Below, in pieces: positions 24,422 through 61,903 of a DNA stretch of 64,000 nt. The stretch is from positions 3,286,992 to 3,350,991 of the forward strand of contig NZ_CP132333.1 of the NCBI RefSeq assembly GCF_030758935.1, given 5' to 3'. A model generated the notes under the pieces. That model did not search any database. It worked only from the letters and a program-made list of their open reading frames with translations, and was not told where the DNA came from. Position 1 is the first letter of the stretch; each line of letters opens with the position of its first letter. Made by a program: the position numbers and the translations under genes. This DNA comes from Geothrix sp. PMB-07 (lineage in GTDB: Bacteria; Acidobacteriota; Holophagae; Holophagales; Holophagaceae).

Positions 24422-24721
24422 TTAACGAGTGAATCGAAGAATCAGCTCCTTCAGTATTGTCCGAAGCTGAGCAGCTGATTGGGCCTCCAGATGTCGATCA
24501 ATGATTTCTGTGAGGGGAGGGCTCGGAGCCTTCGTTGCTCCTTTTGTCTCCAGCAGCTTCATACAACTGATGAGAACGTCCCCAGGCGGGACGACTTGTC
24601 CCCGCTCGTATTTCGAGATGAGGCTCTGGCCGCGCCCCAACTCCGCAGCAAGTTCCTGCTGCGTCCATCCATGTTTCTTTCTGGCTCTGCGGACGAGTGA
24701 GGCAATGGTCTGAGGGTTCAT
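24422..24721 (-). CDS. Small XRE-family repressor
   Basis: The 99-residue product has one Cro/C1-type helix-turn-helix (residues about 5-55: IASLVRRARKKHGWTQQELAAELGRGQSLISKYERGQVVPP) and a short helical tail (LTEIIDRHLEAQSAAQLRTILKELI), probably for dimerisation. It is divergent from the glycosylase operon, and a palindrome overlaps that operon's promoter. I infer it is the operon's repressor and also controls itself. Small XRE proteins in this position are common for defence and toxin-antitoxin loci. Confidence 0.85.
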   Translation of the reverse strand: MNPQTIASLVRRARKKHGWTQQELAAELGRGQSLISKYERGQVVPPGDVLISCMKLLETKGATKAPSPPLTEIIDRHLEAQSAAQLRTILKELILRFTR

Positions 24722-24763
24722 GTGTCGTCGCAGTCTCCATGGGAATTCAGGTCGAAATCATTC

Positions 24764-24803
24764 TTGACACGACTTTTTTAAAAATCTAGTCTTAAAATGA
24801 CTA
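24764..24803 (+). promoter_or_regulatory. Promoter with overlapping palindromic operator for the glycosylase operon
   Basis: TTGACA (24764-24769), a 17-base spacer and TAGTCT (24787-24792) form a sigma-70-like promoter. The palindrome TAGTC-TTAAAAT-GACTA (24787-24803) covers the -10 and the likely start point, an ideal place for repression by the divergent XRE protein. GGGAGCGGAAC precedes the ATG at 24820. Confidence 0.65.
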
Positions 24804-24819
24804 AACTAGGGAGCGGAAC

Positions 24820-25560
24820 ATGCAGAGAATTTCCGCATCAGTGAATGGAGAGAGGCTGGAGAAATGGCTTCCCGACGCAGACGAAGAGGTGATGCCTGGG
24901 GTGCCTTGGGGCCAGAGCCACGTCCTCTTTACACCGGCCTTCTGGGCCGCTTGTGCTTGGCAGCAAAAATCTAGACCAAGCCATCCGCCCAACTATCGGA
25001 CTGGCGAGACCCTTTTGGAAGAGGTTGTCTTTTGTCTCCTCAGTGGCCACGGCGTCTCTGCCGAAATGGCCCGCGCGGCTTTTGATCACCTTAAGCAGCA
25101 CGGTGTGTTCCATATGACCCCAACGGAAGAGGAGGTCTCAGACCTCTTGAGGCAGCGCCATTCGTGCGGTGATCGAAAGATGCGATACCGGTTCCCCAAT
25201 AGGCGAGGGGCCTATATCGCTGAAGCCATTCGGGCCATTCATCAGAAGATGCCCCTTCCAATCGGCGGACATGAGCTTCGCGACTGGCTCATGACCCTGC
25301 CGGGAGTTGGCCCAAAGACCGCGAGTTTCATCGTGAGGAACTGGTGTGACTGCGATGACGTTGCGGTAATTGACATTCACATCCAACGAGCCGGTGTCGC
25401 AGCAGGAGTTTTTGAAAAGAATATGCTCCCAGAGCGGCACTATTTCGCGATGGAGCGAAGGTTTCTGGCGTTTGCAACCGCACTTGGCGAAAAGGCCTCC
25501 TTACTCGACCTGTTGATGTGGTCCTGCATGAGAAGTGCGGGGACGCTGGCATTTCTCTAA
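24820..25560 (+). CDS. HhH-GPD DNA glycosylase/AP lyase, OGG-like
   Basis: The 246-residue product carries a helix-hairpin-helix (LPGVGPKTASFIVRNW) with the catalytic Lys (K166) of bifunctional OGG-type enzymes and the catalytic Asp (D185 in VAVIDIHIQR). The N-terminal half (GETLLEEVVFCLLSGHGVSAEMARAAF) is the usual helical glycosylase fold. It lacks the iron-sulfur Cys cluster of EndoIII and MutY. Such an enzyme excises a damaged or modified base and nicks the strand. It is the first gene of a likely four-gene operon with a QueC-like enzyme and a PfkB-deoxyribosyltransferase fusion, so a role on modified purines, in host or phage DNA, is likely. OGG-like Cap11 proteins occur in type IV CBASS. 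Confidence 0.85.
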   Translation: MQRISASVNGERLEKWLPDADEEVMPGVPWGQSHVLFTPAFWAACAWQQKSRPSHPPNYRTGETLLEEVVFCLLSGHGVSAEMARAAFDHLKQHGVFHMTPTEEEVSDLLRQRHSCGDRKMRYRFPNRRGAYIAEAIRAIHQKMPLPIGGHELRDWLMTLPGVGPKTASFIVRNWCDCDDVAVIDIHIQRAGVAAGVFEKNMLPERHYFAMERRFLAFATALGEKASLLDLLMWSCMRSAGTLAFL

Positions 25561-25654
25561 GCACGACCGCTGCGTAAGAGGAATTTGATTAACCTATTTT
25601 TTGATTGACGATGCAATCTGGCGCGAGCACCCTCGTCCCATCTGGAGGTTCACG

Positions 25655-25999
25655 ATGGGCAAAGGGGAGTATTCCTCTCCGAGTTATTCATTAACTGGTG
25701 GCGGGGGAGTGCACTCTGGGGGCGGAGATAGTTGCGATTTGGAGTGCGTGGTCACTATCCAAAATCCAAACCTGTCCGTGCTTTCGGGCGTTAGCAAAGG
25801 CTCAATCCTTCAAGTAAAGCTGAAAACCCAGGACAAGCAGACGATTATATCGGTGGAATTCCTCGGCCGCCTGGCCGGTGCCATCGTTCCTGATCCACTT
25901 CCAGACTTCCTTCGCTGCCTTCAAAAGGGGGTGGCTTACAAAGCCATTGTATTGGTGAAAGATGGCGAGTTCGTCGAAGTGAAGATTCAGAGGGCATAA
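25655..25999 (+). CDS. Small protein with Met-Gly-Lys-Gly start and Gly-rich N-terminus, unknown function
   Basis: The ATG at 25655 follows GGAGG at six bases, so earlier in-frame starts are rejected. The 114-residue product begins MGKGEYSSPSYSLTGGGG, a flexible Gly/Ser-rich tail, then a compact, probably beta-rich domain (about 28-114: CDLECVVTIQNPNLSVLSGV, GSILQVKL, VEFLGRLAGAIVPDPLPDFLRCLQKGVAYKAIVLV). Removal of Met would expose an N-terminal Gly. It overlaps the next gene by one base. It has no recognisable catalytic motif. Its place beside a QueC-like enzyme makes it a candidate substrate or adaptor for that enzyme, which is speculation. Confidence 0.8.
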   Translation: MGKGEYSSPSYSLTGGGGVHSGGGDSCDLECVVTIQNPNLSVLSGVSKGSILQVKLKTQDKQTIISVEFLGRLAGAIVPDPLPDFLRCLQKGVAYKAIVLVKDGEFVEVKIQRA

Positions 26000-27198
26000 T
26001 GATTCATGTCGCTGGCGGATTGTATATTGAGACATGTATGGATCCGTCAACTCGGGGGGTATTTGGGTCTGGAGGGCGAGCTGCTGCGGCCCTCGTAAGC
26101 CAGGCGGGCCCGGTGATTTTGCACTCCTATATATCTACGCCTGCACTTCCACATGCTCAAGCTCTAGCGGGTTCTTTCGGATTTGAGTTGAGGCGGACAG
26201 ATTGTTCAATCGCTATTCAGTTCGACTATCTACATAGCCTGGCGACTCCAAGAGTAAACCCACCTCTCCACAAAATCACCTTGCACACTCCATTAATCGT
26301 CGATGGAGAAGTCATCCTGCGCTTCGGATTTCTTGAGGGATCCGCAATAGTTCAAGGGAAGCGGGTGGTCTATGATCCACAGTCACCTTTTAACGCAGAG
26401 CCGTTCTGGAACAATGGCTCTGTGGCTGAGAGCCTCGTCATCGTGGCGAATGAATCCGAGACCATACAACTCGGTCATGAACCTGATGCCCTCTCATCTG
26501 CAAGAAAAATCACGCGTGAGCACAGCAATACAGCTGTCATCGTCAAGATGGGAAGTCGAGGGTGCTACGTCGTTACGAAATCCGATGAGACTCTTATCCC
26601 TGCCTACCAGACGGGAAGAGTCTATGGCATTGGGTCTGGGGACATTTTTAGTACTGCGATCGCCTTATGTTGGGGACGTGATGAAAAGGATCTCGTTGAT
26701 GCTGCGACATTCGCATCGATGGCTGCCGCTCGTTACTGCCATACTCGATCCCTTTCTTTGATTCAGCACGCGGAACTACTTAAAACTGGACTGAGCCCCG
26801 TACTTCCCATCGATCCAGGTCATAAGGTTTATCTAGCTGGCCCCTTCTTCAACATTGCACAGCGCTGGCTTGTAGAAGAGACACGCGATCAGCTGATGAA
26901 ACAGGGACTGAATGTATTCTCTCCTCTTCATGATGTAGGAATTGGCCCTGGATTGGACATAGCAGAGAAGGATCTTCGTGGCCTGGAGGAATGTGATCGA
27001 GTTCTCGCCTTGTTAGACGGCGCAGATCTAGGAACCGTATTTGAGATTGGTTATGCACGGAAGCTGGGGATCCCCGTCATTGCCTTGGTTCAACAACTTA
27101 CTGATGAGCAACTCAAAATGGTTCTCGGGAGTGGCTGTGAAATTGCCCCCGATCTAGCCACGGCCATCTATCGGACAGCATGGAGTAAGAAGGGCTAA
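25999..27198 (+). CDS. PfkB-family kinase fused to a nucleoside 2-deoxyribosyltransferase
   Basis: Two domains in 399 residues. Residues 1 to about 260 are a ribokinase/PfkB-like kinase (opening MIHVAGGLYIETC, C-terminal motif GIGSGDIFSTAIALCWG near 212 with the catalytic Asp; the usual second motif residue Ala is Ser here). Residues about 273-395 are a nucleoside 2-deoxyribosyltransferase (KVYLAGPFFNIAQRWLVEETRDQL, FSPLHDVG, and DLGTVFEIGYARKLGIPVIAL with the likely nucleophile Glu near 348). The fusion could make or salvage an unusual nucleoside by exchanging its base and phosphorylating the sugar. TAATG coupling joins it to the upstream gene. The QueC-like gene starts one base after its stop. 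Confidence 0.85.
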   Translation: MIHVAGGLYIETCMDPSTRGVFGSGGRAAAALVSQAGPVILHSYISTPALPHAQALAGSFGFELRRTDCSIAIQFDYLHSLATPRVNPPLHKITLHTPLIVDGEVILRFGFLEGSAIVQGKRVVYDPQSPFNAEPFWNNGSVAESLVIVANESETIQLGHEPDALSSARKITREHSNTAVIVKMGSRGCYVVTKSDETLIPAYQTGRVYGIGSGDIFSTAIALCWGRDEKDLVDAATFASMAAARYCHTRSLSLIQHAELLKTGLSPVLPIDPGHKVYLAGPFFNIAQRWLVEETRDQLMKQGLNVFSPLHDVGIGPGLDIAEKDLRGLEECDRVLALLDGADLGTVFEIGYARKLGIPVIALVQQLTDEQLKMVLGSGCEIAPDLATAIYRTAWSKKG

Positions 27199-27199
27199 T

Positions 27200-27668
27200 T
27201 TGAACAGAGCGCTCTTACTATCGGGTGGCCATGATTCGATCGCGATTGCTTATCGGGATCGCCCGGAATGGGCTGTGACCATCGATTACGGTCAGATCCC
27301 GGCCGAGGCAGAAATCCATGCTTCGTCTGCTTTGTGCAAAGAGTTGAAGATTCCTCACGTAATTCTCAAGGTTGATTGCCAAGCTCTAGGAGTCGGTGAT
27401 CTGGCTGGGACGCCTCCCTTGTCGATCTCACCAATGGATGCGTGGTGGCCATTTCGAAATCAATTGCTCGTCACTCTTGCTGCGTCAAGAATGTTGAGAG
27501 AGGGTGTTCATGAAATCCTGATAGGCACTGTTCGAGAAGATCACTGCTTTGCTGATGGTCGCGCGGAATTTGTTCGGGCCATGAATCTGCTTCTTTCGAT
27601 GCAGGAAGGGGGCATAACACTCACTGCCCCCGGTGGCCTGTCCCCTCCAAATAGAGCCAAGCTAAATG
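27200..27668 (+). pseudogene. QueC-like ATP-dependent enzyme, truncated by an IS3 element
   Basis: TTG at 27200 is the likely start, one base after the previous stop. About 155 residues remain: the PP-loop LLSGGHDSIAIAY, IDYGQIPAEAEIHASSALCKEL, the QueC block WWPFRNQLLVTLAASRM, IGTVREDHCFADGRAEFVRAMNLLLSM, and APGGLSPPNRAK. QueC makes 7-cyano-7-deazaguanine; relatives serve in type IV CBASS (Cap9) and Qat systems (QatC). The C-terminal part, where QueC has its Cys zinc site, is gone because the leader of an IS3 element starts at about 27668. The frame then runs on in the wrong reading frame of the transposase to 27880. The operon may have had more genes beyond this point. Confidence 0.85.
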
Positions 27669-28904
27669 TTAAGGTCCACTCCAAAGGAGTCGGATCCAAT
27701 GAGGACAAGCAAGTTCACCGAGGAGCAGATCGTGGGGCTTCTCAGAGAGGCGGAGAAGGGGGAGCAGACGGTCGATGCCCTCTGCCGGGCCCGTGGGATC
27801 ACGGCGCAGACCTTCTATCGATGGCGAAAGAAGTATGGCGGAGTCGAGGTTTCCGATGTCCGGCACATGCGGCAGCTTGAGAAGGAGAACGCCCAGCTCA
27901 AGCGCCTTCTGGCAGAACGGGAGCTGGATATCGCAGCCCTGAAAACGGTTCTCCGAAAAAAATGAGTGGCGCGTCGCAGCGAAAGGAGGGGGCGGCATAC
28001 CTGACGGCCACCGGCTTCTCCCAGCGGCGCGCTGCCCGGGCCATGGGCCTGAGCCGTTCCTATGTCCGGTATTCACGCCGGGTGAAACTGGATGGGCTGG
28101 ACGAGCGGATCGTCCAGCTTGCCCATGCCAACCCCCGCTATGGCCACCGGCGCGTCTGGGCCCTCCTGAGGCGGCTCCAGCTCCGGGTGAACCTGAAACG
28201 GGTCCACCGGGTTTTCAAAGCCCATGGCCTCCAGGTCCGGCGGCGTCCCAAAAAGCACCTCCGGACCGGCCAGCATGTGCCGATGAAATCCGGGTATCCC
28301 AACCAGGTCTGGTCCTACGACTTCGTCCACGACAGCTGCCTGAACGGCGAGGTCGTGAAGTGCCTGACGCTCACCGACGAGTTTACGAAGGAGGCGTTGG
28401 TCATCGAAGTGGCCTCCTCCTTCAAGGCCGAGGAGGTCATGCAGGTCCTCAAACGCTTGTTCCAGACCCGGGGATGGCCCGCATTCCTGCGCAGTGACAA
28501 CGGCCCCGAGTTCATCGCCCATGACCTCCAGGTCTGGCTGATGGCCACCGGTGCCCAGACCTTCTACATCCCCCCGGGCTCGCCCTGGGCCAACGGCGTG
28601 GCCGAGAGCTTCAACAGCAAGTTCCGGGACGAATGCCTGAACATGGAGGCCTTCTCCAGCCTGGCTGAGGCCAAGGTCATCGTCGAAGCCTGGCGCCGTC
28701 GCTACAACGAGGAGCGCCCGCACAGCAGCCTGGGCTACCTCACCCCAACCGAGTTCCGCTGCACCATTGAACTGGCTCAGCTCGGTCTCCCTGCGACGGG
28801 GGCTCTGCCCCCGGACCCCCGGGATTTATCGCTTTGGGCACCCCCGGTGGAGGCCAACGCCCTGACAGAAAAGGCCAGGGCGTTTCCCCTGGCCAACACC
28901 GTCC
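27669..28904 (+). mobile_element. IS3-family element (second type), right end replaced
   Basis: It holds OrfA and OrfB of an IS3 element different from copies A and B. The left boundary is approximate (near AAGGTCCACTCCAAAG). The right end cannot be seen because the terminal repeat of another IS3 element starts at 28905 and supplies the stop codon of OrfB. It truncates the QueC-like gene. Confidence 0.75.
27699..27965 (+). CDS. IS3-family transposase OrfA (second type)
   Basis: The 88-residue product (MRTSKFTEEQIVGLLREAEKG) has the HTH_Tnp_1 fold and a zipper (LEKENAQLKRLLAERELDIAALKTVL). The start at 27699 follows GGAGTCGGATCC; an upstream in-frame start is less likely. A run of seven A at its end overlaps the OrfB start and is the expected frameshift site. 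Confidence 0.9.
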   Translation: MRTSKFTEEQIVGLLREAEKGEQTVDALCRARGITAQTFYRWRKKYGGVEVSDVRHMRQLEKENAQLKRLLAERELDIAALKTVLRKK

Positions 28905-28924
28905 TGACGTGCCCCCGAGATTAG
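27962..28924 (+). CDS. IS3-family transposase OrfB (second type), altered C-terminus
   Basis: The product has HTH_21 (RYGHRRVWALLRRLQLRVNLKRVHRV) and a complete DDE core: VWSYDFVHDSC, FLRSDNGPEFIAHDL, and GVAESFNSKFRDECLNMEAF with the catalytic Glu, then ERPHSSLGYLTPTEF. The last residues (TCPRD) and the stop come from the terminal repeat of the adjacent element at 28905. The catalytic core is intact, so activity cannot be excluded. Confidence 0.88.
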   Translation: MSGASQRKEGAAYLTATGFSQRRAARAMGLSRSYVRYSRRVKLDGLDERIVQLAHANPRYGHRRVWALLRRLQLRVNLKRVHRVFKAHGLQVRRRPKKHLRTGQHVPMKSGYPNQVWSYDFVHDSCLNGEVVKCLTLTDEFTKEALVIEVASSFKAEEVMQVLKRLFQTRGWPAFLRSDNGPEFIAHDLQVWLMATGAQTFYIPPGSPWANGVAESFNSKFRDECLNMEAFSSLAEAKVIVEAWRRRYNEERPHSSLGYLTPTEFRCTIELAQLGLPATGALPPDPRDLSLWAPPVEANALTEKARAFPLANTVLTCPRD

Positions 28925-28930
28925 GTCCAA

Positions 28931-29821
28931 TCAGGATGAGCCTACTGGGTTGAAAAGGATCTCGTTGGGATTCGCGGAAGGAGCCGTAGGCGACTGGAGT
29001 GAATCCCAACGACGCGCTGCTTCGATGGGAGTTATTCCGCCCAGAGGGCCATGGGGCCTGTAGTGATTGTAATCATGACGCCAGTCTTCCGTGATGATTC
29101 GAACTTCTCGCAGGCTGGCGAACCAATGCTCATTGAGGCATTCGTCTCTGAACCGTCCGTTAAAACTCTCGCAGGTCCCGTTTTGCATCGGCTTTCCGGG
29201 TTGGATGAGATGGTGCTCGATGCCTTGTTGGTGGCGCCACTGATCGAAGATTCGACTGGTGAACTCGGGACCATTGTCCGTTACAAGGATCTCTGGGCGG
29301 CCCCGCTCATCAATGATCCGTTCCAGCACTCGAGCCACCCGAAGGCTGGGAAGACTTGTGTCCACTTCAATGGCCAGGCATTCCCGCGTGAAGGTATCCA
29401 CAACGTTCAGTGTCCGGATCGAACGGCCATCGGCCAGGGCATCCGAGGTGAAGTCCATGGCCCATTGCTCATTCGGCCGGGTCGGAACTCGCAGTTCTCT
29501 CCGCATTCCCCCCTTTAGCCGCTTTCGAATTCGTTTCCGAACCGACAGGCCCTCCTCCTTGTAGAGCCGGTAGATCCGCTTCACATTCACGGGGAAGGCC
29601 TCCCGGCGAAGCAGCATATGCAGCCGCCGATAGCCGAACCGCTTCCGTTCCCCAGCCAGCTCTATCAACCGCTTGCGTAGCTCCGTCCAATCCACGCGGG
29701 TGCTCGGTCGGCGGTAAGCCGATCTCGTCACCCCGAGCAGGATGCAGGCCCGGCGCTCGCTCACGAACTGGCCTTGCACCAGCTCTCGAACGGCCTGCTT
29801 TCGTGCGCCGGACCTCACCAT
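28931..29821 (-). CDS. IS3-family transposase OrfB (third type)
   Basis: The 296-residue product has HTH_21 ([26 protein letters not shown]) and a full DDE core: [46 protein letters not shown], then [20 protein letters not shown]. It overlaps OrfA at a run of seven A (about 29820-29828), consistent with programmed frameshifting. No damage is seen. Confidence 0.92.
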
Positions 29822-30081
29822 TTTTTTGATAGAAGGTGCTTCATCCCCTCAATCTCCAACTCCCGCTTTCCCAAGAGCCGCAGCAGCTGCGCATTCTCCT
29901 GCTCCAGTTGCTTCAGCCGACGAGCGTCAGAGACCTCCATCCCCCCAAACTTCGCCTTCCATCGGTGGAATGTTTGTTTGGAAATCCCCAAATCACGGCA
30001 TAAATCCGGAACCTTCTCTCCAGCCTCATGCCGTTTCAATGCTCGGATGATCTGTTCCTCTGAAAATTGTTTGGCCTGCAA
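29815..30081 (-). CDS. IS3-family transposase OrfA (third type)
   Basis: The 88-residue product has the OrfA helix-turn-helix ([34 protein letters not shown]) and a zipper ([29 protein letters not shown]). The start is a TTG at 30081 with AAAGGAGGACAAG directly upstream. Confidence 0.9.
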
Positions 30082-30144
30082 CTTGTCCTCCTTTGGACAG
30101 GGGCAGTCTCATTCTCGCTGGACCTATTTCTCGGGGGCACGTCA

Positions 30145-31555: not shown

Positions 31556-32152
31556 TCAGTCCGCCCAATCCGGCAGGTCGAATTCCGTCTCATCCACAAA
31601 GAGAAAATCCCGTTGGACCTGTCTGAAGTTCGCCACAAAGCGACCATAGTCGTCGGACATGGCACTCATGCTGTTGGCATCGAGAGCAAGCCGGAACCGC
31701 TCAAGTAGCCGTTTCGGGTCCACGAGCCCCCGACTTGCCATCGCCTCGATGTCGGCCACATCGTTGGCCTTGAACCGCTTCAGCTTGCTCACGACCACAT
31801 CCACGATATCGAGAATTTCGACATAGAAGTATTTCAGCTTCGCATTCAGGTCGTCGGCTGGATGGTAGATGGCGGGTTTCGGCAGGAACGGAATGCCAGA
31901 GCGCACGATGTCCAAATAGACTCGGTGTCGAATTGCCAGCGGGGTCCCCTCGCCACCGAGCTTCTGCAATCGCCTCTGGACTTCCTCAGAAAGGGCGGCG
32001 ATCTCCAGCACATCACCGTCCTTCGTGGCTCGCGCATAGTCCGACTGAAGCATGAGTGCCACAGACCCGATGACCCTGAGAGTAATCCGGTCCCCCTCGG
32101 GGCCCTTCCATGCCCTATCCAGGTCCAGGAAAAGAGCTTCAACGGGCGACAT
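31556..32152 (-). CDS. Nucleotidyltransferase-like protein (DUF6036/AbiEii type), putative toxin or antitoxin
   Basis: The 198-residue product has the minimal-nucleotidyltransferase opening: Gly-Ser in RVIGSVALMLQSDYARATKDGDVLE, with the D.D-type metal pair in KDGD. Later blocks (DDLNAKLKYFYVEILDIVDVVVSKLKRFKANDVADIEAM) match DUF6036/AbiEii-like proteins, which are toxins in type IV-like abortive-infection pairs. It overlaps the upstream XRE gene by 14 bases, so the two are translationally coupled. Function as a toxin that modifies tRNA or protein is an inference from the family and pairing. Confidence 0.7.
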   Translation of the reverse strand: MSPVEALFLDLDRAWKGPEGDRITLRVIGSVALMLQSDYARATKDGDVLEIAALSEEVQRRLQKLGGEGTPLAIRHRVYLDIVRSGIPFLPKPAIYHPADDLNAKLKYFYVEILDIVDVVVSKLKRFKANDVADIEAMASRGLVDPKRLLERFRLALDANSMSAMSDDYGRFVANFRQVQRDFLFVDETEFDLPDWAD

Positions 32153-32924
32153 CGGCAGCCTTCAGGGCTTCAAGAAAATCGGTCGGTTGGAGATTGGAGA
32201 TGATGTGCCATCGCTTGGAGATCTCCGAGGAATGCTTTCTGATGTTGGCCTTGGTCTGCTCGCTGAGATTCCTAGATCCGATCAGGTCCTCGTAGTAGCT
32301 GTCGAGGGTACGATGACGATGCGACTCAACCCAGGACAGAAAATCCGTGAGTGAACGCTCCGCACTTCGAAGCGCCAGGGTCTCCTGTCGCGAAAGATCC
32401 CCCTTTAGCGACTCCTGCACCGCAGCGAGTGTATTTTCGGCCAGCCAGCCCAGACGGGCCTCTAGGCCGACATTTGAGAGGTGTACCCACAGCCGGGTCC
32501 ACCCCAACCACTTTGAAGATCGGACCACCACAGGGGCCAGAGCCGCCAGGTGCCGTGGCACATCCCCACTCACCAAGACCTCGCGGATCAACTGATCCAC
32601 CTTCTCCAAATCCTCGCTTGGGAACACCCCTTCATTCGGGGCGAGATGAGTCGCTCCCAGCCGGAGCAATGCGTTCTGAAGCTCGTCTACAACGTCGCCC
32701 TTCTTCTGCACGAAGGCAGAGGCCGGGACATTGAAGATCCTGAGGATCTCCAGGAACTGCTCCGCGGTGAACGAACCCTTCCCGTTCTCAATCTCGGAAT
32801 ATCGCCCCTGTGAGAGGCCTAAACGCTTCGCCAGCTCGCTCTGGGTAAGCCGCCGTTCCTTTCGGAGCTCAGCGACTTTATCCGATATGTATTTCCTGCT
32901 TTTACTTGTTTTATTGTTTTCCAT
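32139..32924 (-). CDS. XRE-family regulator with long C-terminal domain, partner of the nucleotidyltransferase
   Basis: The 261-residue product starts with a Cro/C1 helix-turn-helix (about residues 12-68: VAELRKERRLTQSELAKRLGLSQGRYSEIENGKGS) and continues with a mostly helical domain I do not recognise (LQNALLRLGATHLAP, SKWLGWTRLWVHLSNVGLEARLGWLAENTLAAVQ). It is encoded first in a two-gene unit, and a palindrome lies just upstream. Both fit an autoregulated toxin-antitoxin or abortive-infection module. Confidence 0.8.
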   Translation of the reverse strand: MENNKTSKSRKYISDKVAELRKERRLTQSELAKRLGLSQGRYSEIENGKGSFTAEQFLEILRIFNVPASAFVQKKGDVVDELQNALLRLGATHLAPNEGVFPSEDLEKVDQLIREVLVSGDVPRHLAALAPVVVRSSKWLGWTRLWVHLSNVGLEARLGWLAENTLAAVQESLKGDLSRQETLALRSAERSLTDFLSWVESHRHRTLDSYYEDLIGSRNLSEQTKANIRKHSSEISKRWHIISNLQPTDFLEALKAADVAR

Positions 32925-57533: not shown

Positions 57534-59558
57534 ATGACAAGGCTGCCTGTGAGACTCATCCGATTCGCCTCCCTCCTTGCCGTGGTGGCCAGCATTCCCT
57601 GGCTGGGCGCCCAACTCCCGGACAAAGGCCAGCGCGTTCCCACGGCCACCCTCACCGTGGACGCTCGAAATCCCGGTGCAGCCATCAACCCCGCCATGTG
57701 GGGTGTTTTTTTTGAAGACATCAATTTCGCAGCGGATGGGGGGCTCTGGGCGGAGTTGGTGAAGAACCGCTCCTTCGAGTTTCCCAATCGTCTCCAAGGT
57801 TGGTACGAAGTCCGCCGCAAGCAGGCGCGCGGCACCATGACCATCCTGGATGAGAAACCAGCCATTCCGGAGAATCCCCACTTCCTCCGGCTGCAGTCCC
57901 AGGACCCCGGCGAAGGCTACGGCGTCGGCAACGAGGGCTTCCGAGGGATGGGAATCAAGGCCGGAGAGGCTTTGCGTTTGACCCTTTGGGCCCGGCGGGG
58001 GGCGGGTGCACCGGTGAACCTCCGTGCAACCCTTCGAGGGGCTGAAAACCGCATCCTGGCCGGGGGGCAGGTGCGGGTCGACAGTCCCGTCTGGGCCCAT
58101 TTTGATTTGCTGCTCTCTCCTGCGAACACCGATCCGGGGGGTCGCCTGGAGCTGACCCTGGAAGGCCCTGGCCAGGTGGATCTCGACGCCGTCTCCCTGA
58201 TGCCCATGGCGGCAACGCATGGCTTCCGCCCCGACCTGATGCGCCTTCTGGCCGACCTGAAACCCGGCTTCGTGCGCTTTCCCGGAGGCTGCGTGGTGGA
58301 AGGGCACGACCTCGCCAACCGGTATCAATGGAAGCGCACGGTGGGACCGGTCGACGCCCGACGTCCCATGCCCAACCGCTGGCTTGACAACCTGGCGGGC
58401 GAGGGCCGCTTCGCCGCGGACTACCAGCAGTCCTTCCAGCTTGGCTTCTTCGAGTTCTTCCAGCTCTGTGCCGATCTGGGCGCAGAGCCGCTGCCAGTGC
58501 TCAGCTGCGGCATGGCCTGCCAGTTCGAGACGAGCGAGATGACGCCCCTCGACCAGCTGGAACCCTTCATCCAGGATGCCCTCGACCTCATCGAGTTCGC
58601 CAACGGCGCTCCCACCACCCCCTGGGGCAAGGTGCGGAGGGACATGGGCCATGAAGCCCCCTTCGGCCTGAAGTTCCTCGCCGTGGGGAACGAGCAATCA
58701 GGACCGGAATACCTGGATCGCTTCAGCCGCTTTGAGCAGGCCATCAAGGCGAAGCATCCGCAGATCCAGATCATCGGCAGCGCCGGACCGTGGATGGGCG
58801 GGGAGGATTTCGACACCCTCTGGGCCGGTCTCCGGGCCCGGAAGGCCGACCTGGTGGACGAGCACTACTACGCGCCTCCATCCTGGTTCTTCAACAACGC
58901 CCATCGCTACGACAGCTACCCGCGCACCGGCCCCAAGGTGTTCGCGGGAGAATACGCCGCCCACCCCGAGCGGCCTGCACCGGGGGCGCCAAGGCCCAAT
59001 TCCTGGGAAGCCGCTTTGTCCGAGGCCGCCTTCATGACCGGCCTCGAGCGCAACGCCGACGTGGTGCGCCTGGCCTCGTACGCGCCGCTCCTCGCCTGCG
59101 TGGATGCCTGGCAATGGTCCCCGAACCTCATCTGGTTCGACAGCCTCCAGTCCTCACCGACACCTTCGTATTGGGTGCAGCAGCTCTTCTCCCGGAACAG
59201 GGCCAGCCGGGTGCTGCCAGTGGAGCTGACACTCACCTCCTCCGCCACTGCCACCGCAGGCCTCTACACCACTGCCGCGCTGGACGAAACCACCCACGAG
59301 GTGGTCCTCAAAGTGGTCAATGCCGGCCGACGCCCCGCGGAGCTTGCGCTGCGGGTCCGGGGAGCCCAGCCTCTGACTGGAAAGGGTCGGCTCACAGTGC
59401 TCAGCGCCGGCCTGGCCGATGAAAACCTCGTCGGCGCGCCGCCCAAGGTCACACCTGCCACCACCGACATCGACATTCCAGGGCCTGAGTTCACCCGGGC
59501 CTTCCCTGCCCAATCCTTGACCATCCTGCGCCTTCCCCTCGTGAAAGAGACCCCGTGA
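57534..59558 (+). CDS. Exported alpha-L-arabinofuranosidase, GH51 family
   Basis: The 674-residue product has a signal peptide (RFASLLAVVASIPWLGAQ), an N-terminal part with a carbohydrate-binding-like jelly roll (about 90-215), a catalytic barrel with acid/base Glu in FLAVGNEQSGPEY (about 388) and nucleophile Glu in VFAGEYAAHPE (about 472), and a C-terminal beta domain. INPAMWGVFFEDINFAADGGLWAELVKNRSFEF is the GH51 opening. It removes alpha-linked L-arabinofuranose from arabinan, arabinoxylan or arabinogalactan. Its stop overlaps the next start by four bases (GTGA). Confidence 0.92.
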   Translation: MTRLPVRLIRFASLLAVVASIPWLGAQLPDKGQRVPTATLTVDARNPGAAINPAMWGVFFEDINFAADGGLWAELVKNRSFEFPNRLQGWYEVRRKQARGTMTILDEKPAIPENPHFLRLQSQDPGEGYGVGNEGFRGMGIKAGEALRLTLWARRGAGAPVNLRATLRGAENRILAGGQVRVDSPVWAHFDLLLSPANTDPGGRLELTLEGPGQVDLDAVSLMPMAATHGFRPDLMRLLADLKPGFVRFPGGCVVEGHDLANRYQWKRTVGPVDARRPMPNRWLDNLAGEGRFAADYQQSFQLGFFEFFQLCADLGAEPLPVLSCGMACQFETSEMTPLDQLEPFIQDALDLIEFANGAPTTPWGKVRRDMGHEAPFGLKFLAVGNEQSGPEYLDRFSRFEQAIKAKHPQIQIIGSAGPWMGGEDFDTLWAGLRARKADLVDEHYYAPPSWFFNNAHRYDSYPRTGPKVFAGEYAAHPERPAPGAPRPNSWEAALSEAAFMTGLERNADVVRLASYAPLLACVDAWQWSPNLIWFDSLQSSPTPSYWVQQLFSRNRASRVLPVELTLTSSATATAGLYTTAALDETTHEVVLKVVNAGRRPAELALRVRGAQPLTGKGRLTVLSAGLADENLVGAPPKVTPATTDIDIPGPEFTRAFPAQSLTILRLPLVKETP

Positions 59559-61903
59559 AAGCCATCATTCCCTTCTGCCTGTTCACCATCCTGGCCCCAG
59601 CCCAGGTGGCCCGGCCCATCCAGCCGGTCATCGCCGATGTGGCGCGGCCCCTGCCGCTCCAGTCGGTCCGTCTCACCGGCGGCCCGCTCAAGCATGCCCA
59701 AGACCTGGACGCCGTGTACCTGCTCAGCCTGGAACCGGACCGCATGCTGGCGAACTTCCGCAAGCGCGCCGGTCTTCCGCCCAAGGCCGAGCCCTATGGT
59801 GGCTGGGACGGCGACGGCAAGAACCTCTCCGGCCACATCCTGGGCCACTACCTGTCCGCCATCAGCCTGATGGGCAGCGCCACCGGCGACGCCCGGTTCA
59901 AAGCCCGGGTGGACTACATCCTGTCCGAGCTCAAGGTGGTCCAGGATAAGCAGGGCGATGGCTACCTGGGCGCCCTGGAGCAGGGCAAGGAGCGCTTCGA
60001 GGAGGTGGCCCGCGGCGACATCCGATCCGGGGGCTTCGACCTCAATGGCCTCTGGTCGCCGTGGTACGTCCAGCACAAGATCTACGCCGGATTGAGGGAT
60101 GCCTATCGCTGCACCGGGAACCCCCTGGCGCTCGCCATCGAGATCAAGTTCGCCGCCTGGGCGGAGCGCACCCTCGCTGGGTTGAACGACGCCCAGCTCC
60201 AGAAAATGCTCAATACGGAGTTCGGCGCCATGAACGAGGTGCTGGCGGATCTCTACGCCGATACCGGCGATCGGCGGTGGCTGGATCTCTCCTACAGATT
60301 CGAGCACACCGCGGTGCTGGAGCCCCTGAAGCGGCATCAGGACAAGCTCAGCGGGCTGCACGGCAACACGCAGGTGCCCAAGCTCATGGGCAACCTGGCC
60401 CGCTATGCCTACACCGGGGATTCCGGAGACGGCTTCGCGGCTTCATTTTTCTGGGATCGCGTGGTGCAGCATCACACCTTCGCCACCGGAGGGCACGGCA
60501 AGAACGAATACTTCTTCGACGCCGACCACATGTCCGACAGCGTCGATGGCCGCACGGCGGAGACCTGCAACGTCTACAACATGATCAAGATGGCCAGGAA
60601 GCTCTTCGCCCTCCGCCCCGATCCCTTCTACGCGGAGTTTCACGAACGGGCCCTGTTCAACCACATCCTCGCCTCGATGGATCCCCAGGACGGCCGCACC
60701 TGCTACATGGTGCCCGTGGGCCGTGGCGTGCAGCATGAATACCAGGATATGGAGCACGACTTCACCTGCTGCGTGGGCTCCGGCATGGAGAGCCATGCCC
60801 TGCACGCCTTCGGCATCTACTACGAGGCTGGAAACCGGCTCTGGGTCAACCTCTACACACCCACCACGGCGAATTGGGAATCGGCCGGCGTGTCGGTGGC
60901 CACGGCCACCGATCTGCCTCTGGGCGACCAGGCCACCCTGACCTTCACCGTGAAGAGCCCCAAGGCCTTCACCCTGAACCTGCGCCGCCCCGCCTGGGCC
61001 CAGGAAGGCTTCCAGGTGGAGGTCAACGGAGAAAAGCTGCCATCGTTGGCCAAGGCCGGGGCCTACGTGGAGATCACCCGCACCTGGAAGAGCGGCGATG
61101 TGGTTCGCCTGCTCATGCCCAAAAAACTGCGGCTCGAGGCCCTGCCGGACAATCCACGTCGGGCCGCCATCCTCTGGGGCCCTCTGGTGCTGGCCGGGAA
61201 CCTTGGGCCCGAGGAGAACTTCGAGACCTGGAAGGAAGGCAATGTACCGGTCCTGGTGGCTGCGGAGCGGCCCCTCGACCAATGGATCAAACCTGTTCCC
61301 GGGAAGCTCGGCCAGTTCCGCACGGAGGGCGCAGGCAATCCCCACGAGGTGGACCTGGTTCCCTTCTTCCAGCTGCACCGCCGCTCCTACGCCGTGTATT
61401 TCGACCTGTTCACGCCCAAGGAATGGCAGGCGCGGTCCGCTGAGTATGCCGCGGCCGCAGAACGCCAAAGGCGGCTCCAGCTGGCCACCGTGGCCTACGC
61501 GCAACCCGGAGAGATGCAGCCGGAACGGGATTTCAACTTCAAGGGCGAGGGTCTGATTCTCGAGGAGATGCGCCGAATCCAGGGCCGCCCCTTCCGCCAT
61601 GCGAAGCAGTGGTTCTCCTTCGACCTGCCCGTGGACGCGACCCATCCCACCGCGGTCGTCCTGACCTATTTCCAGGATGAATGGCGCAAGCGCACGTTCC
61701 GCATCCTGGTGGACGGCCAGAAGGTGGCCGACGAGGTCATCGAGCGGGGCGGCATTCCGCACTTCTTCGATCGGGAATACGCCGTGCCCCAGGCCCTGGT
61801 CCAGGGCAAGAAATCGGTCACCGTCCGCATCGAGGCGACCCCTGACAGTGAAACGCCCGCCATCTTCGGCGTCAGGACCATCCGCGCGGATGCCCAACGC
61901 TGA
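59555..61903 (+). CDS. Exported beta-L-arabinofuranosidase-like enzyme, GH127/GH146 type
   Basis: The 782-residue product (GTG 59555) has a short signal sequence, then an alpha/alpha-barrel of the DUF1680 type: QSVRLTGGPLKHAQDLDAVYLL, GWDGDGKNLSGHILGHYLSAISLM, AETCNVYNMIKMARKLF with the acid/base Glu region, and FTCCVGSGMESHALHAFG with the zinc-bound catalytic Cys (about 404). Beta domains follow. This type removes beta-linked L-arabinofuranose, found on hydroxyproline residues of extensins and in pectic side chains. GH146 fits better than classical GH127 by its CCVGSG motif, but the split cannot be certain by eye. Confidence 0.88.
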   Translation: MKAIIPFCLFTILAPAQVARPIQPVIADVARPLPLQSVRLTGGPLKHAQDLDAVYLLSLEPDRMLANFRKRAGLPPKAEPYGGWDGDGKNLSGHILGHYLSAISLMGSATGDARFKARVDYILSELKVVQDKQGDGYLGALEQGKERFEEVARGDIRSGGFDLNGLWSPWYVQHKIYAGLRDAYRCTGNPLALAIEIKFAAWAERTLAGLNDAQLQKMLNTEFGAMNEVLADLYADTGDRRWLDLSYRFEHTAVLEPLKRHQDKLSGLHGNTQVPKLMGNLARYAYTGDSGDGFAASFFWDRVVQHHTFATGGHGKNEYFFDADHMSDSVDGRTAETCNVYNMIKMARKLFALRPDPFYAEFHERALFNHILASMDPQDGRTCYMVPVGRGVQHEYQDMEHDFTCCVGSGMESHALHAFGIYYEAGNRLWVNLYTPTTANWESAGVSVATATDLPLGDQATLTFTVKSPKAFTLNLRRPAWAQEGFQVEVNGEKLPSLAKAGAYVEITRTWKSGDVVRLLMPKKLRLEALPDNPRRAAILWGPLVLAGNLGPEENFETWKEGNVPVLVAAERPLDQWIKPVPGKLGQFRTEGAGNPHEVDLVPFFQLHRRSYAVYFDLFTPKEWQARSAEYAAAAERQRRLQLATVAYAQPGEMQPERDFNFKGEGLILEEMRRIQGRPFRHAKQWFSFDLPVDATHPTAVVLTYFQDEWRKRTFRILVDGQKVADEVIERGGIPHFFDREYAVPQALVQGKKSVTVRIEATPDSETPAIFGVRTIRADAQR

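Follow-up and report, generated by a model that had tools for sequence, protein, structure and literature searches.

A mobile QueC-based operon, inactivated by an insertion sequence in Geothrix sp. PMB-07, that probably conjugates a nucleobase to a protein N-terminus

In type IV cyclic oligonucleotide-based antiphage signaling systems (CBASS), the QueC-like enzyme Cap9 couples 7-carboxy-7-deazaguanine (CDG) to the N-terminal glycine of a CD-NTase, according to excerpts of PMC11996544 and PMC13279940. Excerpts of the latter also state that Qat defence needs the disordered N-terminus of QatB (MGTS), for which an equal modification is proposed, and that methionine is commonly removed when a small residue follows. 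Another QueC group, cluster 4 in excerpts of PMC13329287, lies beside a fusion of a PfkB-type kinase and a nucleoside 2-deoxyribosyltransferase (PfkB-NDT) in ∼89% of cases, and purine salvage is suggested there. The subject of this study is an operon with a QueC-like gene from Geothrix sp. PMB-07, found in a 64,000 nucleotide stretch of contig NZ_CP132333.1 (positions 3,286,992 to 3,350,991), hereafter the window. By analogy with Cap9 and Qat, the operon is probably a mobile QueC-based system that conjugates a nucleobase to a protein N-terminus (steps 1 and 2 of the scheme below), because a QueC-like enzyme again adjoins a protein whose tail is predicted to be disordered and whose N-terminal motif is fixed.

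An earlier reading of the window, made from the sequence only, had proposed a related immune or nucleoside-modification system. The gene content it gave for the locus (24422-27633) was confirmed:

24422..24721, minus strand: XRE-type repressor, divergent from the operon (Pfam HTH_31, 2.5e-13)
24820..25560, plus strand: OGG/AGOG-like HhH-GPD DNA glycosylase (Pfam Ogg-HhH, 3.3e-18; PDB OGG/AP lyase, 8.7e-9)
25655..25999, plus strand: small MGKG protein, 114 residues, with a predicted disordered Gly-rich tail on a HIRAN-like domain
25999..27198, plus strand: PfkB-type kinase fused to nucleoside 2-deoxyribosyltransferase (Nuc_deoxyrib_tr, 1.5e-17; PfkB, 2.2e-10)
27200..27633, plus strand: QueC-like ligase, TTG start, ∼144 residues left (Pfam QueC, 9.8e-15), cut by an insertion sequence (IS)

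The repressor and the tight packing described in that reading were borne out by the Pfam matches and the coordinates. The stop of the small protein gene and the start of PfkB-NDT overlap by 1 base, and 1 base separates PfkB-NDT from QueC. None of the five genes matched a CD-NTase, as had been stated, and none matched a TGT.

Relatives of the QueC numbered 246 in 84,980 species genomes, and the best 80 by similarity were kept as loci. They come from Pseudomonadota, Bacteroidota, myxobacteria and others. In a draw of 297 genomes from the phylum of Geothrix, one other match to PfkB-NDT spanned nearly the full fusion, at 45% identity. Using profiles built from plasmid copies and from locus L002, the small protein was found in 74/80 loci, PfkB-NDT in 77, QueC in 80 and a nitroreductase-like flavin oxidase in 79. 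OGG was present in 73/80, on the operon strand in 38 and on the opposite strand in 35, and Dam in 26/80. The small protein, NDT and QueC genes were ordered on one strand in 73/80 loci, so the arrangement is more than chance. The homologues are therefore not scattered singly among housekeeping genes, and the proposal of a recurring cluster without a CD-NTase, with a logic related to type IV CBASS and Qat, held. The recurring operon comprises small protein, NDT, QueC, oxidase, OGG and Dam; CD-NTase and TGT are not part of it. In 14 annotated plasmid loci of this main form no CD-NTase was named, the hypothetical proteins there not being scanned. The suggestion that TGT, CD-NTase and effector had been lost beyond the IS elements is not supported; the relatives continue instead with the rest of QueC and then the oxidase (79/80).

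The operon is also carried by plasmids. PfkB-NDT was found over at least 80% of its length in 37 plasmid records, and all 24 plasmid records with a QueC of the operon type (1e-15) also hold PfkB-NDT. In three haloarchaeal plasmids the profiles found only the small protein, NDT and QueC. A QueC search of IMG/VR viral contigs gave 7 loci, one with QueC alone at a contig end; two further scans added no contig, and a search of IMG/VR with PfkB-NDT gave none. Among 50,697 phage records 2 matched PfkB-NDT, neither over 80% of it. Parts of the operon are present twice in L037, L102, L111 and L124, and in L111 the NDT and QueC genes of the first copy are broken into pieces.

The small protein had no match above a curated cut-off in family libraries. 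When starts were picked by Shine-Dalgarno sequence and codon alone, blind to residue 2, 76/96 distinct small proteins began with M[STGC]G, vs 4/410 other operon proteins. With motif-guided starts, a biased step that covered 90/96 distinct proteins, residue 2 was Ser in 82, Gly in 4, Thr in 3 and Cys in 1. Residue 3 was Gly in 87 of these 90, on which the position entropies were also calculated, and the remaining tail was variable. In an AlphaFold2 model 87/114 residues had a predicted local distance difference test (pLDDT) score >=90 and the tail was of low confidence; the Gly-rich N-terminal tail is predicted to be disordered. The domain matched 3k2y (Foldseek 6e-4, Z 11.2), the HIRAN domains of HLTF (Foldseek E ∼0.02-0.1, Z 8.0-8.5), Hachiman HamB (Z 7.1) and Rad5 (Z 7.0), the next, unrelated rows scoring 5.1 or less; according to the comparison tool's own warning, Z near 8 may reflect a common arrangement. 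The predicted fold thus resembles DNA-binding HIRAN domains. Cys27 and Cys88 were kept in 91/93 and 93/93 proteins, respectively. QueC N-terminal conjugation systems have a partner with a disordered tail and a fixed small-residue N-terminus, and such a partner is found here. The small MGKG protein is the probable N-terminal conjugation substrate, a role missed by the sequence-only reading. The haloarchaeal small proteins (L021, 6363-6998; L032, 5339-5998; L038, 4910-5998) are longer, with the domain seemingly repeated twice, preceded in L038 by a long Gly/acid-rich tail.

The QueC of the relatives is ∼200 residues long. In 100 aligned sequences, numbered from the L039 start as assigned by script, Tyr20 was kept in 98, Gln22 in 96, Glu28 in 98 and Arg76, Asn77 and Asp109 in 100, and Cys160, 167, 170 and 173 in 97-98. 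Asp109 aligns to the Asp in the YxDC stretch of Cap9; excerpts of PMC13279940 place Thr at the equivalent position of QatC, and also at that of the CDG-stacking Tyr. The stretch GSG[DE][LM]xG is common to the operon QueC and Cap9 and was not found in two solved QueC. The QueC profile (A2) matched Cap9 (2.1e-14) and QueC (6e-15) about equally, favouring neither as the closer relative. By score the operon enzyme falls outside canonical QueC; against the QueC equivalog TIGR00364 (cut-off 150.3 bits) the window fragment scored 51.7 bits and an intact relative 68.8. It carries the motifs YGQ(x)6E and CH(x)5CxxCxGCxK and, as cluster 4 is described in excerpts of PMC13329287, belongs to that cluster.

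By fold, profile and an active-site-type Tyr, the best match for the gene after QueC is a SagB/ThcOx-like oxidase. Its profile matched ThcOx/CyaGox (1.2e-15), BmdC (3e-10) and McbC (0.03) in the PDB. The model (pLDDT 96) was closest to ThcOx (Z 24.2 over 222 residues), with lower matches to BmdC (Z 16.7), McbC (14.6) and others (10.8-13.8). The Tyr is invariant in 38/38 oxidases and the preceding Lys is present in 20/38. Excerpts of PMC8795117 describe BmdC, whose active-site Tyr lies close to flavin mononucleotide, as a thiazoline oxidase. In microcin-type pathways, by excerpts of PMC4979651, an azoline forms when Ser or Cys attacks an amide at the expense of ATP, and a flavin enzyme then oxidises it. 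Residue 2 of the small protein was compared with the presence of the oxidase. It was Ser in 79 and Thr in 3 of 82 loci with the oxidase, and Ser in 8, Gly in 3 and Cys in 1 of 12 loci without it. Residue 2 was read at the motif M[STGCA][GSK], where other residues could not appear, and the comparison omits the window, which has Gly at residue 2 and has lost its downstream part, L099, which lies at a contig end, and L061, L094, L098 and L105, whose starts are unresolved. Fisher's test gave 0.0016 for Gly at residue 2 vs oxidase, the relatedness of copies being ignored; two of the three Gly-2 loci without the oxidase are haloarchaeal.

The following scheme is proposed. (1) Once Met is removed, residue 2 would form the N-terminus of the small protein. 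(2) Using ATP, the QueC-like enzyme would activate a carboxylated nucleobase, most likely CDG, and join it to the residue-2 amine, as Cap9 does on its CD-NTase. The later steps are more tentative. (3) In proteins with Ser or Thr at residue 2, the amide could be cyclised to an oxazoline, which the flavin oxidase would convert to an oxazole; this step we put forward with reserve. We infer that the QueC-like enzyme itself might carry out the cyclisation; in canonical QueC the second step spends ATP on an amide, according to excerpts of PMC13329287. (4) Conceivably, though the odds are somewhat against it, NDT exchanges the base of a deoxynucleoside with the one bound to the protein and PfkB phosphorylates the sugar, in the role of the TGT-like Cap10 of CBASS. 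(5) That the tagged HIRAN-like protein and the glycosylase then act on foreign or damaged DNA is doubtful. An extended version, in which 7-deazaguanine is oxazole-linked to the N-terminal Ser or Thr, QueC ligates and cyclises instead of forming a nitrile, and NDT-PfkB yields a protein-linked deoxynucleotide, is unlikely. If true, a protein fixed to DNA, for example at glycosylase-opened sites, would block viral replication. The CBASS- and Qat-like logic behind the earlier proposal stands, and protein-nucleobase conjugation is likelier than nucleoside modification given the small protein as probable substrate.

Several observations weigh against the conjugation reading. Its chemistry, like the defence role, is a prediction from genes and models. 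Residue 2 is mainly Ser, not Gly as in the Cap9 and Qat substrates, and the CDG-stacking Tyr of Cap9 is replaced by His. The comparison of residue 2 with the oxidase rests on motif-guided starts and related copies, and the loci themselves were the 80 most similar of 246. For 54 members, the Pfam matches listed at E up to 1 included no HIRAN family. Between ThcOx and BmdC ranked three further nitroreductase-family structures (Z 18.7-19.9), and the sole NCBIfam match of the oxidase, TIGR03605 (SagB), reached 38.8 and 35.9 bits with a cut-off of 78.4. Host supply of the base was examined in 50 operon genomes, comprising the genome of the window and those behind 49 of the 80 loci. The QueD family (PF01242) was present in 36/50. 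QueD enrichment, expected if the operon depended on CDG synthesis by the host, was not seen; among operon-bearing Pseudomonadota, assigned by record title, 26/39 had QueD vs 232/299 drawn from the phylum, a draw that includes two operon genomes. Of the 14 operon genomes without QueD, 8 have canonical QueC and six do not (G297, G298, G309, G320, G330 and G339, three of them metagenome bins). CDG may therefore not be the substrate; in view of a queuosine-precursor-type transporter gene near the operon in some loci, described below, which also fits the conjugation reading, the base may instead be imported.

Analogy, plasmid carriage and neighbouring genes make it quite probable that the operon serves antiviral defence. 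PADLOC at 1e-15 gave 110 model names around the operon (120/626 open reading frames (ORFs)) vs 36 around QueD in 20 operon-bearing genomes (120/232 ORFs). This comparison proves little for a defence island, as it counts models, many of them redundant, rather than proteins, in ORFs selected by length. Part of Cap9 searched against plasmids gave no match at 1e-8.

In PfkB-NDT, Asp215 of PfkB was kept in 95/96 and Glu349 of NDT in 94/96; these we take to be the catalytic residues. Lys166 and Asp185 of the glycosylase were kept in 85/85 relatives. A dGTPase gene lies near 4/14 annotated main-form plasmid loci (L023, 11346-12710; L029, 7780-9270; L035, 3382-4749; L134, 9260-10681). In L029 (Moraxella) it overlaps the end of QueC, the position held by the oxidase in other operons. 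Deoxyguanosine from the dGTPase could be a donor for base exchange.

A side form was read in four of 13 plasmid records (H25-H37), all from Rhizobiaceae:

about 6000-10400 in L033, L034, L155 and L156: PfkB-NDT, then a TIR protein, an OGG-like lyase, QueC and a second TIR protein

The NDT half is degenerate in the two rows aligned, and the second TIR protein starts with MGGG in 4/4. Of the four, L033 was scanned; there a TGT domain, seen only in this form, closes the first TIR protein, and the second TIR protein is ThsB-like. The side form looks like a further QueC-based system, in line with the conjugation reading, and unites CBASS-like TGT and OGG parts with a TIR protein as likely substrate.

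The Geothrix copy is an IS-inactivated remnant of a mobile cluster. Two elements follow its QueC:

27634..28904, plus strand: first insertion sequence, interrupting QueC; the full element is 1438 bp elsewhere (two other genomic copies), and its last 167 bp are absent here
28905..30144, minus strand: second insertion sequence, in place of the missing end of the first, with 16-bp perfect terminal inverted repeats

The first is presumably of IS3 type, judged by its ORFs. Of eight other genomic matches to 27600-27800, seven start at 27634 and one (99%) at 27630. This puts the left end of the IS at 27634 and the last native base of QueC at 27633, rather than 27668 as had been thought. The conserved cysteines sit in the third of QueC that was lost. 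Apart from the canonical gene and a match of 26 bits, no further QueC remnant was found in the genome, and with QueC cut at 27633 the copy is therefore dead. The genome carries canonical QueC and QueD-family genes. A relative's oxidase gave no match in it at E up to 1, an empty result without a positive control.

Among other explanations, modification of DNA bases coupled to restriction is unlikely. Here a 7-deazapurine deoxynucleotide would be made for DNA, the glycosylase would remove it or its absence would mark foreign DNA, and Dam and restriction genes would be partners. NDT, kinase, OGG and Dam all work on DNA bases or deoxynucleosides, a Dam-type gene is found at the loci counted above, and a gene annotated as restriction endonuclease lies near 3 plasmid copies. 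The main form holds no enzyme for insertion into DNA, however, Dam is absent from most loci, and the M-S-G tail and the preference for Ser/Thr are unexplained. We regard as quite improbable a salvage of purines or 7-deazapurines, in which a modified nucleoside would be produced or recycled by the QueC-like enzyme together with PfkB-NDT, the small protein having an accessory or chaperone role. It is the role suggested for cluster 4, and a Vut/YhhQ-type (queuosine-precursor) transporter gene neighbours the operon in 6 loci, alphaproteobacterial only (L022, 9363-10040; L039; L042; L062; L101; L079). They include Pseudohalocynthiibacter (G297, without QueD and canonical QueC) and Microvirga (G306, without canonical QueC); the Vut_1 family was above cut-off in 15/18 genomes searched. 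Salvage leaves the N-terminal motif, the ThcOx-like oxidase, plasmid carriage and the missing QueD enrichment unexplained. A type IV CBASS decayed through loss of its CD-NTase, TGT and effector, to which the QueC-like and OGG-like genes, alike in kind, and the A2 match to Cap9 might point, is highly improbable and largely refuted by intact relatives with a fixed, different gene set, by plasmid loci in which, hypotheticals aside, no CD-NTase is named, and by a glycosylase without a PADLOC match.

Upstream of the operon the sequence-only reading had placed a palindrome over the divergent region. An inverted repeat is present there:

24764..24795, no strand: imperfect palindrome between the divergent genes, a single inverted repeat with overlapping 17-nt arms, 71% complementary

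On this arm complementarity the palindrome is a weak candidate, and no sigma-70-like promoter was found between the XRE and OGG-like genes. In Roseivivax (L022) a divergent HTH gene likewise precedes OGG. Just beyond the IS elements (31556-32924, minus strand) a DUF6036 nucleotidyltransferase adjoins an HTH gene, a possible toxin-antitoxin or defence pair. At 57534-61903 (plus strand) an arabinofuranosidase pair has a TonB plug-domain protein, a sodium symporter and a sugar kinase close by and represents ordinary sugar use.

In the literature searched, with subscription journals and most preprints outside the search, only PMC13329287 was found on this gene set. The cluster 4 QueC beside PfkB-NDT was already known; no report was found on the small protein with its motif and fold, on the oxidase or on a conjugation role. 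If the conjugation reading is true, QueC-based protein-nucleobase conjugation would be a general immune chemistry with exchangeable substrates (CD-NTase, QatB, HIRAN-like and TIR proteins), and cluster 4 would gain a likely substrate. It could link azole chemistry of ribosomally synthesized and post-translationally modified peptides (RiPPs) to antiviral immunity, and the NDT-PfkB system could help explain the transglycosylase and glycosylase of type IV CBASS.

Compared with type IV CBASS, the operon likewise places a QueC-like enzyme, the counterpart of Cap9, next to a protein with a fixed small-residue N-terminus (MGGS on the CD-NTase), and shares an OGG-like gene (Cap11) and a transglycosylase-type enzyme (NDT here, TGT-like Cap10 there). 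It differs in having a HIRAN-like candidate substrate for the CD-NTase, PfkB-NDT for the TGT, an added azoline-oxidase-like gene and mainly Ser at residue 2; neither CD-NTase nor Cap10 is part of it. As in Qat, the partner of the QueC-family protein has a predicted disordered N-terminal tail with a fixed motif. None of the QatA ATPase, QatB, long QatC and QatD recurs in the operon, its QueC lacks the QatC extensions and keeps Asp where QatC has Thr, and the helical QatB fold is unrelated to the HIRAN-like one. The motifs and the PfkB-NDT neighbour are those of QueC cluster 4, whereas the excerpts of PMC13329287, in which purine salvage is proposed, say nothing of the small protein, the oxidase or OGG. 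Unlike RiPP azoline pathways, the operon has no identified YcaO-type cyclodehydratase and offers a single candidate residue, at the terminus of a folded protein, but its oxidase shares fold, profile and invariant Tyr with the SagB/ThcOx/McbC oxidases. Finally, the predicted fold of the small protein is like that of HIRAN in HLTF, Rad5 and Hachiman HamB, with no HIRAN family among the Pfam matches listed by sequence.

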